DNA of 32,839 nt from an uncultured Erysipelotrichaceae bacterium (GTDB lineage: Bacteria; Bacillota_I; Bacilli_A; RFN20; CAG-826). Location of the stretch: NCBI GenBank assembly GCA_900314585.1, contig OMVV01000012.1, positions 1 through 32,839 of the forward strand. The letters run 5' to 3'. The notes under the pieces are model-generated. The model did not search any database. It worked only from the letters and a program-made list of their open reading frames with translations, and had not been told where the DNA came from. The translations under genes and the position numbers were made by a program. This document shows, piece by piece, positions 23,735-29,345 of this stretch. Each line of letters opens with the position of its first letter. Position 1 is the stretch's first letter.

Positions 23735-23770
23735 AAAAGTGTGTGCTTTGTTGCGCACGCTTTTAATTTT
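23735..23770 (+). terminator. Rho-independent terminator after the polyamine/RluA operon
   Basis: 12-bp stem AAAAGTGTGTGC (23735-23746) / GCGCACGCTTTT (23753-23764) with two G-T pairs and a TTTGTT loop, followed by a T-rich stretch. Confidence 0.9.
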
Positions 23771-23774
23771 CGGT

Positions 23775-23780
23775 TATAAT
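23775..23780 (+). promoter_or_regulatory. -10 box of the DUF1538/PII operon, leaderless
   Basis: TATAAT at 23775-23780, seven bases before the GTG start at 23788. It directly follows the preceding terminator. Confidence 0.6.
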
Positions 23781-23787
23781 TATCTAC

Positions 23788-25365
23788 GTGTTTTTAGAGT
23801 CGTTAGTTAAACTAAAAGAATCATTCCTATCTACCCTTCCTGTTGTTGTGGTAGTTCTTTTATTAAATTTCATCCCAGGAATTGGCTTTGATTTAACTAC
23901 TACTCAACTCGTTATCTTTGGCATTTCAGCCGCATTAGTCGTTGTTGGTATGTGGCTATTCAATGTTGGCGCCGATTCATCAATGCATAAGATGGGTGAA
24001 CTTGTAGGTTCATCTTTAACAAGGAAGCAAAGCATGGTTTTGCTTGTTGTTATCTTCTTCTTATTTGGCGTGTTTATTACAGTTGCCGAACCAGATTTAT
24101 CAGTTCTCGCTAATCAAGTTCCAACCATCCCAAGCTTCTTATTAATCGGGTTAATTAGCTTTGGTGTTGGAGCATTTATCGTTATCGGCGCATTAAGAAT
24201 TCTTTTTAAAAGGAACCTAAAGGTTTGGTTATTAGGATTCTATGGATTAATGTTCGCATTGTGCTTATTAATCGACAAATCTTATATTCCACTATCTTTA
24301 GATAGTGGCGGTGTTACAACTGGCCCAATCACTGTTCCGTTTATTCTTGCGGTTGGTGTTGGTATCGCTACATCACGCGCAGGTAATAAATCAACATCTG
24401 ATTCCTTTGGTCTTGTTGCATTTGCTTCAATCGGACCAATCTTAATGGTGCTCATTTTGGCATTGGTGTTTAGAGATAACTTAACTTACGATTTCCAAAT
24501 CAATTCATTGATTGATCCAAATAGTCCTGAATCCGCAGCCGGCTTTAACGGAGCAACTGTTGGTAACGCATTTCTTAGGGCCCTTCTTCCACATGGTTCT
24601 GAATATGGCGCTTTACTAAGTGTGACCATATCCTTATCACCAATCTTATTATTCTTTGTTGTGTACGAACTTATCTTTATTAAATTATCTTCAAGAACTA
24701 TGTTCTCGATTATATTTGGTATCGGCGTTTCCTATGTTGGCTTGATCTTATTTATGACCGCTGTCAGCGCTGGATTCTTACCAATCGGTCAAAAATTAGG
24801 TCTCGAACTTGCTCAAGGTGAACTCTGGATCTTGGTTCTTGTTGGAGCGTTCTTAGGTATCGTTGCAGTATTTGCCGAACCAGCTGTTCACGTTTTAACA
24901 AACCAAATGACAGAAATCAGTGATGGTTCAATTAGTAGAGTCACCGTTGTTCTCGCATTAGCGTTTGGCAATGGTGTCGCAATCGTCTTATCTGTATTAA
25001 GAATTTATTTCGGTGTTGACTTCAGTTTGTTATACATCGTTGTGCCAGGTTACATTTTGGCATTTGCATTATCATTTGCTGTTCCAGACATTTACACTGC
25101 AATGGCGTTTGACTCTGGCGGTGTTGTCTCTGGTCCAATGAACACGACTTTCATATTACCGTTTGCGATTGGTGCGTGTTATTCCTTCTGGGGTAACGAC
25201 CTTATTATGACCAATGCTTTTGGCACGATTGCAGTGGTCGCATTAATGCCGCTTATCATGATTCAACTTATCGGTTTAAGTGCATCAATAAAAATACGTG
25301 CTCAATACCGAATTGCTCGCAATCGTATTCGTGAAGAATTCGATGATCAAATCATTCATTTTTAG
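23788..25365 (+). CDS. DUF1538 membrane protein with tandem duplication (putative transporter)
   Basis: 525 residues, almost wholly membrane helices (about 12-14). Two parallel halves can be seen. AEPDLSVLANQ (100-110) with LDSGGVTTGP (171-180) is repeated as AEPAVHVLTNQ (363-373) with FDSGGVVSGP (441-450), at similar spacing. The polar DSGG motifs inside hydrophobic helices look like substrate or ion sites. The fold and the two downstream PII-like genes suggest a regulated transporter; the substrate is unknown. GTG start with no Shine-Dalgarno, placed by the -10 box. The stop overlaps the AGGAGG of the next gene. Confidence 0.82.
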   Translation: MFLESLVKLKESFLSTLPVVVVVLLLNFIPGIGFDLTTTQLVIFGISAALVVVGMWLFNVGADSSMHKMGELVGSSLTRKQSMVLLVVIFFLFGVFITVAEPDLSVLANQVPTIPSFLLIGLISFGVGAFIVIGALRILFKRNLKVWLLGFYGLMFALCLLIDKSYIPLSLDSGGVTTGPITVPFILAVGVGIATSRAGNKSTSDSFGLVAFASIGPILMVLILALVFRDNLTYDFQINSLIDPNSPESAAGFNGATVGNAFLRALLPHGSEYGALLSVTISLSPILLFFVVYELIFIKLSSRTMFSIIFGIGVSYVGLILFMTAVSAGFLPIGQKLGLELAQGELWILVLVGAFLGIVAVFAEPAVHVLTNQMTEISDGSISRVTVVLALAFGNGVAIVLSVLRIYFGVDFSLLYIVVPGYILAFALSFAVPDIYTAMAFDSGGVVSGPMNTTFILPFAIGACYSFWGNDLIMTNAFGTIAVVALMPLIMIQLIGLSASIKIRAQYRIARNRIREEFDDQIIHF

Positions 25366-25374
25366 GAGGAACTT

Positions 25375-25818
25375 ATGGCTGAGAAAGAAACAAAAAAATC
25401 TCAAAAATCTTCGCAAAAATCGAATTTTGTGCCTTTTGAAAAAGAATATGTGCTTCGTCCACTTAAGCTCTTTTTCATCATCGTTCCAGCTGGTCAAGCC
25501 AACGCGATCGTTTCTCGTTTAAATGAGTTTGATATTGCTTGTAGTTTCATCTTTTCTGGCGAAGGAAATGCCAAGTATGCGATGGGCAATAAAGAAAAAG
25601 GTGTTTTCGATTACAAGAAGCAAATTGTTATGGCGGCTATTCGCGAAGACAAAGTTGAATTTATTAAGCGTAAACTCGAAGAACGTTTTGCAGTCTCAAG
25701 AGCGGCTCGCGGTTTCGCGTTCTCAATTAACATTACCTCTGTTGCAGGTGTTTCAATTTACAAATTTTTAACAAATACAAGAAAGGTTACAAAGGTGGCT
25801 AAACATGGCAGAAAGTAA
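25375..25818 (+). CDS. PII-like signalling protein, divergent, with basic N-terminal tail
   Basis: 147 residues. A Lys/Ser-rich tail (1-25) leads into a ferredoxin-like PII fold (about 29-135): strand LKLFFIIVPAGQANAIVSRL, a loop GEGNAKYAMGNKEKGVFDYK (62-81) in the T-loop position, then KKQIVMAAIRED. The canonical B-loop (GTxxHARG) is missing, so nucleotide binding may differ from classical PII. PII proteins are trimers that gate transporters and enzymes. The AGGAGG before the ATG overlaps the stop of the DUF1538 gene. It overlaps the next PII-like gene by 14 bp, which suggests the two are made together and might mix in one trimer. Confidence 0.7.
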   Translation: MAEKETKKSQKSSQKSNFVPFEKEYVLRPLKLFFIIVPAGQANAIVSRLNEFDIACSFIFSGEGNAKYAMGNKEKGVFDYKKQIVMAAIREDKVEFIKRKLEERFAVSRAARGFAFSINITSVAGVSIYKFLTNTRKVTKVAKHGRK

Positions 25819-26122
25819 AAAATCATTAATCGTTTGCATCATCAATAACGGATTCTCTGATCTAGTTATGGATGCTGCAGTCAAATGTGGAGCGAAAGGT
25901 GGAACAACCTTCCACGCTAGAGGAACTGGAAACAAGGATATTGAAAAATTCTTTGGTATCACCATTTCCCCAGAAAAAGAAGTCGTCTTAATTGTTGTCG
26001 ATGAACAAATCAAAGACGATGTCGTTTTAGCAATATATCAAGATGCTGGCTTAGACACTAAAGGACAAGGCATCATTTTCACCTTACCTGTCGAAGATTT
26101 TGTTAATTACAAAAAGAAATAA
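25805..26122 (+). CDS. PII-like signalling protein with B-loop
   Basis: 105 residues, close to the size of GlnB/GlnK. GAKGGTTFHARGTG (29-42) is the ATP-binding B-loop, and the following EKFFGITISPEKEVVLIVV strand is typical of the non-GlnB PII-like proteins of Firmicutes. A canonical long T-loop with the uridylylated tyrosine is not present. It would sense a nucleotide or metabolite and act on the DUF1538 membrane protein encoded upstream; this is inference from operon structure. Shine-Dalgarno-like AAAGGTGG lies before the ATG, inside the first PII gene. It ends at a terminator. Confidence 0.8.
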   Translation: MAESKKSLIVCIINNGFSDLVMDAAVKCGAKGGTTFHARGTGNKDIEKFFGITISPEKEVVLIVVDEQIKDDVVLAIYQDAGLDTKGQGIIFTLPVEDFVNYKKK

Positions 26123-26139
26123 AAGTTCGATGAGTTCTT

Positions 26140-26175
26140 AAAAACGGGCACAAGCGTGTTCGTTTTTATTTTTTC
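26140..26175 (+). terminator. Rho-independent terminator of the DUF1538/PII operon
   Basis: 12-bp stem AAAAACGGGCAC (26140-26151) / GTGTTCGTTTTT (26156-26167) with an AAGC loop, followed by T-rich sequence. Confidence 0.88.
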
Positions 26176-26188
26176 ACAACTTTAGTTA

Positions 26189-26197
26189 TGTTAGAAT
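26189..26197 (+). promoter_or_regulatory. Extended -10 promoter of yfhO, leaderless
   Basis: TGT-TAGAAT at 26189-26197, seven bases before the ATG at 26205, no Shine-Dalgarno. Confidence 0.6.
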
Positions 26198-26204
26198 AAA
26201 CTCC

Positions 26205-29200
26205 ATGAAAACGTTCGCAGAAGAAAGACATGCTATAAGCATCAAGTTTCGTGAGAAATTTGCATTTTTGTTTGATAAGCATTCTTTGTTTTACCATGTC
26301 CTTCTTTTAATTCTGGTTGGACTTGGTTTCTTCGCGTACGCGTTATTGACCGAAAGATTCACTACCCCATTTAGTGGTGACTATTCAATGCAATATATTG
26401 CGTTTGAATATAACTTCTATGATGATTGGTGGACGTTCTTTAAGACTGGTCAGTTCCCATTTTATGATTCAAATACCTTCCTAGGTGCTGATAATGTTAT
26501 CTCAAACACCTATTACGGATTATTTTCCCCTTATACATTCCCGATTTTATTCTTTCCAAGAAGTTTTGTTCCACATGCAATGGCATTAGTGACAATCGCT
26601 AAGCTTGTTGTTGGAGCGTTGCTCTTTAGACTCTATCTCAAATACATGGGCGTTTCAGAAAGTAGCGCGAGAATTTTCTCAATCGCATATGCCTTCATGG
26701 GATGGACCGCATATTACTTATGGTTTAACAACTTTGCTGAAGTTTTATCATTCTTCCCGCTTGTCTTATTTGGCATTGAAAAGATCATTCGTCAAAAACA
26801 AATGTGGGCGTGTTCGCTCGGTTTCTTCTTGATGGGTTTAGGAAACTATTTCTTCCTTCTCACATTTGGTATTTTTGGAGTCGTCTATGCCCTCTTCAGA
26901 TTTTGCCAAACTGTAAAGGAAAGAGGCGGCTGGAAAAACTATAAAGAACACGCGATTGTTTTGGGATTAGGAATCGCCGGTTTTGCTATTGGATATTTAT
27001 TGTCTGCCGCAGTCGTTTTCCCTGCAGTTTTAGGTTCTTTTGGCATTTCACGTGCGTCTACAAGTTCAAAATATTTTGCCCTTTTAAAACAGGCAATTGA
27101 TGGCAAAGATCTAAAGCAATTATTTAGGATTGTTTTCACCTATTGGCATCCAAATGTAATCAGTGGTGCAGAACCAAGCAATTACTTCTTTGAATTCACA
27201 TTCCCACTAGCATCATATTTCTATCCAACCTTATCTGACCGTTATGTCAATATCGTTGGTTATTCTTCTTTTGAAAATGCTGGTAGTTCAATCTTCTTCT
27301 TTACCCCATGCATCATTATGTTTGGTGGTTGTTTATATCGATCCTACATGAACAAAAAAGTTTCGCACTTTATTGCGATTGGTTTATGTGTCCTCTGCCT
27401 ATTTGTTCCGTTCTTCTATTTCCTCTCTGGAGCGTTCACAAATAACTATGGCCGTTGGGAAATTATCGTTCCAACGCTTGGTTTAATGTATATTGCTCTT
27501 AACTTTGATCATCGAAACGAAATTCCTAGACCAGTAATCATTATCTCTGCCATTGTCGCGATGGTTGGAATGATTATGACCTATGTCTTAGCTTTAAAGA
27601 TGATCGAACTTTATGGTTATGAAGAAGGCGTTCGCACCAGCAACTATATCATGTCGCTTTATGATGACGATCAAATTGCAGTTGTTTGGTATGAAATCAT
27701 TCTCTGCAGTTTAGAAACAATTCTTATCTGTGGTTATTGGAAGAAAGTCTATTTAGCCAAGATTATCAAAGTTTTCATTATTGGTGAAGCTATCATCATG
27801 GGTAATGTTGTTGCGAACATGCATTATCTCCAAAGCATCGACACTGATGTTAACAGTGGACTTGAACCACTGTCTCATCAAGTCGCATTGATCGATAGAG
27901 TTAATAAAGAAGACCCAACATTCTTTAGAATGTATTCTTCAGTTGCCGATGACGCTCACGTCAATATTCCACAAGCTGATAACTATAATGGTTTAACAAC
28001 CTTCCATACTTTCTATAACAACCAAGTCGATGACTTCGTTCATATGATGGACATGATGACTTGGGATGAATCGTGGTCAGCTCACTATCTTTATAAGCAT
28101 CAATACCTCGAATCATTCTTAGGTGTGAAATATTACTTAACTCGCGATAGTGACACTAAATATTACAACCCAGATCACGTTTACGAACCAAACGTTCCAC
28201 TTAACTATTCGCTTTATATTAAAGATGAAGAAAATGGTTATCGCATTTATAAAAATGACCACCACATTAATTTTGGTATAGCTTACGACACTCTTTACTA
28301 CAAGCATCGTGATGCTGAAACTCCAAAATACAATGCTTTCTATAATCCAAGTGAAAGTTCTGTTCGTGCGTACTTACGTAACGAAGAAGTTCTTTTTAAA
28401 GGCGCAATCTTAAATGATGAAGATTTAGTGGAAGTTGCTTCAGCCTATCCAGAGAAATTTAATGTGATTGATGAAGTTCCAAAACTTCAAATGGCCACTC
28501 AAACGATGAGACGCGAAGGAATTTATGCTCCATATAACATCAATAGCGAAGGCGAAAAAGAATATTATTATCTCGATCCAGAAAATCCAACTCACGCTAT
28601 CAAAGATGAATTTTTAGTGACTGATACTAAAGATAAATCTATTCCCGTTAACGCTTATCAAATTGTTTACAAACCATTTGTTGGCAAGGTTTTCCCACAT
28701 AGTGCGAAAGGTTCTTATTTTGTAATTGATTACCCAATTCGCACTCCATGGAATAACTACAATGCTTGCGTGTGGTTAATCGATGAACAAGGCAAAACAA
28801 TCACCTTTGACGAAGTCAGAAATACTTTATCTGATGGTCGTTTTGTTGGCCGCGCTCTTTATTCATCAGTCCCAGTTTCAAAGATTATTATTTGTCCAAT
28901 GTCTGATGAATTCTATGACCGACAATCATTAACTTATTACTATGAAGGCTACACCACCGTTGAGAAGAGACTTGATAAAGCTGCTGATAACGGAATCTAT
29001 GATTTTACAAGAAATGGTAATAGATTCACGTTTAAAACAAGCTATGACAGCGAGAAATTCTTTGTTAGCCAATTAGCTTACACAGAAGGCTGGAAAGTTA
29101 AAGCTACATCCGCTACCGGTGAAGTTTCATATCCAAAGGTTTATAACGCTCAAGGCGGATTTGCCGGCTTTGTCGCACCTCGTGGTGAAACAACATATGA

Positions 29201-29345
29201 AATTACCTATATGACTCCAGGTCTAACAAAATGGGCATTAGTAAGTGCAGCTGCCTTCCTTGGTTTAGGTGCATCAATTGCTATTCCAATAATTGTTAAA
29301 AGAAAAAGAGAGGACAAATCCTCTCCTACAACTTCTTCTAATTAA
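26205..29345 (+). CDS. YfhO-family polytopic membrane protein (GT-C-like glycosyltransferase)
   Basis: 1046 residues. A short cytosolic N-terminus is followed by about 12-13 membrane helices (30-560). The first outer loop carries FSGDYSMQY and an acidic stretch, the place of the catalytic Asp in GT-C enzymes. Next are a large outer domain (about 570-1010) and one last helix (about 1017-1037) with a basic tail. YfhO proteins in Firmicutes modify teichoic-acid-type polymers with sugars supplied on lipid carriers; the sugar and acceptor here are not known. The last codons carry, on the other strand, the terminator of the leftward operon, and the stop overlaps rsmI by 8 bp. Confidence 0.85.
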   Translation: MKTFAEERHAISIKFREKFAFLFDKHSLFYHVLLLILVGLGFFAYALLTERFTTPFSGDYSMQYIAFEYNFYDDWWTFFKTGQFPFYDSNTFLGADNVISNTYYGLFSPYTFPILFFPRSFVPHAMALVTIAKLVVGALLFRLYLKYMGVSESSARIFSIAYAFMGWTAYYLWFNNFAEVLSFFPLVLFGIEKIIRQKQMWACSLGFFLMGLGNYFFLLTFGIFGVVYALFRFCQTVKERGGWKNYKEHAIVLGLGIAGFAIGYLLSAAVVFPAVLGSFGISRASTSSKYFALLKQAIDGKDLKQLFRIVFTYWHPNVISGAEPSNYFFEFTFPLASYFYPTLSDRYVNIVGYSSFENAGSSIFFFTPCIIMFGGCLYRSYMNKKVSHFIAIGLCVLCLFVPFFYFLSGAFTNNYGRWEIIVPTLGLMYIALNFDHRNEIPRPVIIISAIVAMVGMIMTYVLALKMIELYGYEEGVRTSNYIMSLYDDDQIAVVWYEIILCSLETILICGYWKKVYLAKIIKVFIIGEAIIMGNVVANMHYLQSIDTDVNSGLEPLSHQVALIDRVNKEDPTFFRMYSSVADDAHVNIPQADNYNGLTTFHTFYNNQVDDFVHMMDMMTWDESWSAHYLYKHQYLESFLGVKYYLTRDSDTKYYNPDHVYEPNVPLNYSLYIKDEENGYRIYKNDHHINFGIAYDTLYYKHRDAETPKYNAFYNPSESSVRAYLRNEEVLFKGAILNDEDLVEVASAYPEKFNVIDEVPKLQMATQTMRREGIYAPYNINSEGEKEYYYLDPENPTHAIKDEFLVTDTKDKSIPVNAYQIVYKPFVGKVFPHSAKGSYFVIDYPIRTPWNNYNACVWLIDEQGKTITFDEVRNTLSDGRFVGRALYSSVPVSKIIICPMSDEFYDRQSLTYYYEGYTTVEKRLDKAADNGIYDFTRNGNRFTFKTSYDSEKFFVSQLAYTEGWKVKATSATGEVSYPKVYNAQGGFAGFVAPRGETTYEITYMTPGLTKWALVSAAAFLGLGASIAIPIIVKRKREDKSSPTTSSN
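29298..29325 (-). terminator. Terminator of the recR-rsmI operon, embedded in the yfhO coding end
   Basis: On the minus strand GAGAGGA (29325-29319), loop TTTG, TCCTCTC (29314-29308), then TTTTTCTTTT. It begins 13 nt after the rsmI stop and lies wholly inside yfhO. There is no good T run in the yfhO direction. Confidence 0.85.

Follow-up and report, generated by a model that had tools for sequence, protein, structure and literature searches.

The three-gene operon at positions 23788-26122 of the window (the whole stretch of 32,839 nucleotides analysed here) probably encodes a monovalent cation/proton antiporter controlled by PII proteins. Its genes are read in the order DUF1538, gene A, gene B, with a terminator on either side, and the layout given in the preliminary description was confirmed for the open reading frames, both terminators and the 14-nt overlap of the two small genes (25805-25818). 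The features are as follows.

23735..23764, + strand: intrinsic terminator 5' of the operon (12-pair stem and T run; fold -20.1 kcal/mol, shuffle z -5.4)
23775..23780, + strand: TATAAT, candidate -10 element, 7 nt 5' of the GTG start of the DUF1538 gene, read directly
23788..25365, + strand: DUF1538 two-domain membrane protein (UmpA-UmpB-like, fused), 525 aa, with PF07556 twice and UmpA/UmpB as nearest NCBIfam models
25375..25818, + strand: gene A, degenerate protein of predicted PII fold, 147 aa (predicted structure, Foldseek, hhalign to the B family)
25805..26122, + strand: gene B, PII protein, 105 aa (PF00543 and residue map)
26139..26168, + strand: intrinsic terminator 3' of the operon (13-pair stem and T run; shuffle z -4.5)

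The TATAAT likely serves as the -10 element of a leaderless DUF1538 mRNA, although no -35 element was detected for it. A YfhO-family membrane protein gene lies immediately 3' of the operon (window 26205-29345) and has a TAGAAT element 7 nt before its start (window 26192-26207), as TATAAT stands before DUF1538 (23775-23790); since a gap of 7 nt leaves no room for a Shine-Dalgarno site, both mRNAs are likely leaderless. A similar-looking YfhO-like gene appears after the trio in several genus-mates (e.g., L016, L018, and L019). No riboswitch or other RNA was found at the operon, the sole Rfam match in the window being the SRP RNA at 1518-1615.

We favour regulation of a transporter by PII proteins, because both small proteins have a predicted PII fold and because the linkage of such genes to DUF1538 is nearly universal. 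The fold had been proposed for both proteins, and it stands; neither of the two outcomes named beforehand as refuting, a lack of recurring linkage or of a PII fold, was observed. Gene B matches the Pfam family P-II (PF00543) with 38.1 bits, the cut-off being 25, as do 71 of the 72 members of its family. Gene A of the window has no Pfam match, but 7 of its 21 relatives match P-II on their own, and two independent routes, profile comparison and predicted structure, assign its product to the PII fold. In the first, hhalign relates the A family to the B family with 99.1% probability (E 7e-19). In the second, the AlphaFold model (pLDDT 86.7, from an 81-sequence alignment) shows a ferredoxin-like order of beta-alpha-beta-beta-alpha-beta followed by a C-terminal helix, and the solved structures ranked top by Foldseek are the PII or PII-like proteins GlnK, CPII, SbtB, and PotN (probability 1.00). 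This helix carries a family motif, YxFLxN, and then a basic tail.

The two proteins differ in what they retain of the canonical ligand pocket (numbering follows E. coli GlnB). The B family keeps G27, T29, and K58 in 72/72 members, G35 in 70/72, and G89 in 67/72, with G87 also kept; it lacks Tyr51, does not conserve Q39, E62, K90, R101, or R103, and has a T-loop about five residues shorter than that of E. coli GlnB. The A family keeps G35, G89, and K58 (74/81), without G27 and T29. The window's gene A reads GEGNAKYA where its relatives read GxGTAxxE, and by this comparison it is degenerate even within its own family. Tyr51, the site of uridylylation, and Q39, K90, R101, and R103 are absent or not conserved in both families, and the alignments indicate that the canonical residues for ATP and 2-oxoglutarate are largely missing from both. 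Some motif assignments of the preliminary description have to be revised. The segment GTTFHARGTG of gene B, taken there for the PII B-loop, is strand beta-2 and the start of the T-loop according to the residue alignment to GlnB, and the B-loop equivalent is LDTKGQGIIF. The product of gene A was described as PII-like, with a basic tail and without a B-loop: fold and tail hold, and its B-loop equivalent is SRAARGFAF.

The transporter itself is matched twice by PF07556 (E 6.6e-111, 369.1 bits, above the cut-off), and its two halves share 29% identity (E 1e-19). The expectation of about 525 residues rich in membrane helices was borne out: the predicted structure (pLDDT 92.7, pTM 0.92) has, in our own reading of the model's helix list, seven transmembrane helices in each half, of which two are interrupted at the AEP and DSGG motifs. 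These motifs recur in each half as described earlier (AEPDLSVLANQ and AEPAVHVLTNQ; DSGGVTTGP and DSGGVVSGP), but the repeats had been called parallel, and the odd number of helices per half, together with a bias of lysines and arginines in the predicted loops (14 inside versus 3 outside), argues against that topology and makes the halves probably inverted repeats. Four acidic residues at the AEP and DSGG helix breaks, E101, D172, E364, and D442, are invariant in 89 sequences (an alignment built without four plasmid-derived rows), and their predicted placement fits cation/H+ exchange. The C-terminal tail, predicted to be cytoplasmic, ends in DDQIIHF, with the family pattern D-x-x-II-x-F. Neither search of the PDB found a relative of the DUF1538 protein: the best profile match was an unrelated protein (E 0.45), and the fold search gave no match at E <= 0.001 (best E 0.027, probability <=0.30), the solved SbtA being likewise unmatched at that threshold.

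The substrate of this family had been called undescribed, which does not hold, because one member, UmpAB of Halomonas zhaodongensis, is a reported antiporter. UmpAB is a heterodimer of two DUF1538 proteins; E. coli KNabc that carries it becomes tolerant of salt and alkali, and in everted vesicles it catalyses Na+(Li+,K+)/H+ antiport in a pH-dependent manner (PMC5484666). DUF1538 is also among the genome features linked to growth pH (PMC13255231). UmpAB shares with the window protein its two DUF1538 units, seven transmembrane helices per unit, and conserved acidic residues; it differs in being encoded by two separate genes, with no PII protein reported, whereas in the window protein the two units are fused into one polypeptide. 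The latter scores below the cut-offs of both equivalog models (142.8 against 490 for NF041627 and 116.6 against 500 for NF041628), and sequence comparison makes it a distant relative of UmpAB. The antiport assignment comes from one laboratory and a distant relative. The DUF1538 protein of the window might instead carry a substrate other than Na+, K+, or H+, such as a nitrogen or carbon compound or bicarbonate, with the PII pair gating uptake as GlnK gates AmtB or SbtB binds SbtA. The known transporter partners of PII proteins are indeed nutrient transporters (PMC8352866; PMC3831643), and the low equivalog scores leave room for a change of substrate. We nevertheless consider this unlikely, because the sole tested member of the family is an antiporter of Na+, Li+, and K+ against H+ (PMC5484666), and because the loci read, with their varying flanks, show no obvious nutrient-metabolism gene next to the operon.

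A neighbourhood survey, proposed with the preliminary description, showed the linkage of DUF1538 to PII genes to be recurrent. All of the approximately 143 DUF1538 loci examined have neighbouring PII genes, nearly always in the order DUF1538-A-B, although some loci were counted from two collections and loci were picked by score, a bias from which the genome-wide counts are free. The order holds in 30/30 loci of relatives; on genome contigs the trio is present in 79 of 80 loci, the remaining contig ending after A; a phylum-wide draw added 26 further DUF1538 loci, all with PII genes; and so have six plasmid loci and one contig labelled as phage. At the genome level, the B subfamily occurs in 94 of the 95 DUF1538 carriers among 392 Bacillota genomes drawn evenly, the exception (G223) showing a weak fragment only. 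Among 72,556 plasmid records, the nine that carry DUF1538 are the same nine that carry B's PII subfamily. The flanking genes differ among the loci of relatives while the trio persists, which rules out chance neighbours. In Alphaproteobacteria (Chelativorans, Methylocystis), separate umpA and umpB genes are accompanied by one PII gene, so that the principle does not depend on a pair. Departures from the usual layout include L148, with three PII genes after DUF1538, and L149 (2537-4888), where split umpB/umpA-like genes come after three PII genes, so that the usual order is inverted and the number of PII genes differs. No relative of B was confirmed in viral contigs; L143 (OR847559.1), from wastewater and labelled as a Listeria phage, carries DUF1538 twice along with one PII gene and is probably a bacterial chromosome mislabelled as phage. 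Among the open full texts searched, no paper was found that links DUF1538 with PII genes; the linkage seems unreported there, and an earlier description may exist elsewhere.

Canonical PII proteins have many targets, and the pair could be the sensor of a wider circuit of carbon, nitrogen, or energy metabolism, with DUF1538 as one client or merely co-transcribed. Four genomes that are 96-99% complete (G076, G232, G244, and G247) retain A and B, with no DUF1538 match anywhere, and their orphan pairs have stayed at the same place, next to and after the RluA pseudouridine synthase gene (L144 4321-5041, L145 4636-5356, L146 4343-5054, and L147 4371-5092). These genomes make a second target possible, or else the pair is decaying in them. 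The A-tail motif is eroded in the orphan pairs and the A branches are long, as if the main target were gone, and apart from these four, every genome examined that has the B subfamily also has DUF1538. We therefore find a wider circuit rather improbable and return to the transporter as the main target.

The two PII proteins had been proposed to form a mixed or a competing sensor, and the evidence favours the former. At least 20 of the loci examined encode A and B as a single fused chain. A phylogenetic tree of PII domains separates those in first position from those in second position (support 97/89) and nests some fusions within a clade of separate genes (99/91), with the qualifications that few columns limit its resolution and that some first-position domains of fusions fall between both groups. 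This topology suggests that the pair is old and was fused more than once, i.e., that A and B are, on these phylogenetic grounds, ancient paralogues repeatedly fused. Together with the fixed gene order and the overlap or short spacing of the two genes, these independent fusions argue for joint action. Separate homotrimers of A and of B competing for the transporter would be in keeping with the strong difference between the two proteins in pocket residues and tails, but the constant gene order, the overlapping or closely spaced reading frames, and the recurrent fusions make such competition improbable.

The genomic context of DarA had suggested another role. In the window, tmk and holB overlap directly; darA is absent between them, as the preliminary description noted, and this had been seen as a reason to look for an alternative sensor. 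It is no evidence for replacement, since DarA occurs in 30/95 Bacillota genomes with DUF1538 versus 65/297 without it and is missing throughout the window's family, with or without DUF1538; this distribution speaks against replacement of DarA by the PII pair. That the pair took over from DarA/PstA as c-di-AMP receptor, coupling c-di-AMP to cation transport, is very improbable: the window's genome (93% complete) encodes a diadenylate cyclase and has no match to DarA (PF06153), and the best PDB profile matches of the A family are DarA/PstA, at non-significant values (E 0.09-0.25), but DUF1538 genomes do not avoid DarA and no tested member of A matches PF06153.

How might a PII pair control the antiporter? 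A and B would assemble into a single hetero-oligomer that acts from the cytoplasmic side of the DUF1538 transporter. B may be the sensor of a small anionic or nucleotide ligand, because it keeps positions on the adenine side and for anion binding (G27, T29, G35, K58, G87, and G89), and A may be a degenerate adaptor, having lost G27 and T29 and kept the conserved YxFLxN helix, which may dock on the DxQIIxF tail of the transporter. The tail motif of the transporter is found in 88/88 loci with the strict A-tail motif versus 38/59 loci without it; these counts use loose patterns and ignore shared ancestry, and the association is suggestive of docking. Ligand binding would then move the short T-loop or shift the docking, such that cation/H+ exchange is inhibited or released, and the balance of Na+, K+, and pH would be coupled to a metabolic signal; GlnK-AmtB and SbtB-SbtA serve as models for this scheme. 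Inhibition by the pair seems likelier than obligate activation, given that UmpAB functions in E. coli with no PII gene cloned alongside it.

The recurrence of the trio in Bacillota, and of a version with one sensor in Alphaproteobacteria, points to what appears to be a widespread and undescribed switch from a small-molecule signal to ion exchange. In its most specific form, which we put forward tentatively and would not yet bet on, this would be a widespread module in which a PII pair that is obligately heteromeric, with B as sensor and A as adaptor, gates a cation/proton antiporter without solved relative, responding to a ligand other than the combination of ATP and 2-oxoglutarate and setting ion and pH balance by a metabolite signal. 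If a PII pair does act on an antiporter of this family, PII control would reach the homeostasis of ions and pH in many Bacillota of gut and rumen, the genes annotated "P-II family nitrogen regulator" beside DUF1538 would be explained, and the DUF1538 family would gain a testable regulator.

PII proteins that have been studied in detail link nutrient status to enzymes and to nutrient transporters, for ammonium and bicarbonate, and in our leading reading the trio would extend this theme of PII-regulated transporters to the DUF1538 family. Four known systems invite comparison. First, SbtA-SbtB likewise has a PII-fold gene placed after the gene of its transporter, and its reported AMP-type ligand pocket and docking of a cytoplasmic PII trimer on the transporter are features predicted here; it differs in a transporter unrelated by fold search and in having one PII protein, not two. 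Second, AmtB-GlnK shares a PII gene beside a transporter and direct gating, which is proposed here, but no Amt was found in the window's genome (93% complete) and this, with the canonical residues missing from A and B (Tyr51, Q39, K90, R101, and R103 being absent or not conserved), excludes a canonical GlnK-AmtB system. Third, DarA/PstA shares the PII-like fold and its occurrence in Gram-positives, whereas A and B lack a PF06153 match and are distributed independently of it. Fourth, the closest known paired system is NifI1/NifI2, two adjacent and unlike PII genes whose products act together on nitrogenase and are both required (PMC9765008); there, the target is an enzyme and the signal is 2-oxoglutarate, and the passages cited mention no fusion, whereas the pair described here is repeatedly fused and would act on a membrane transporter.
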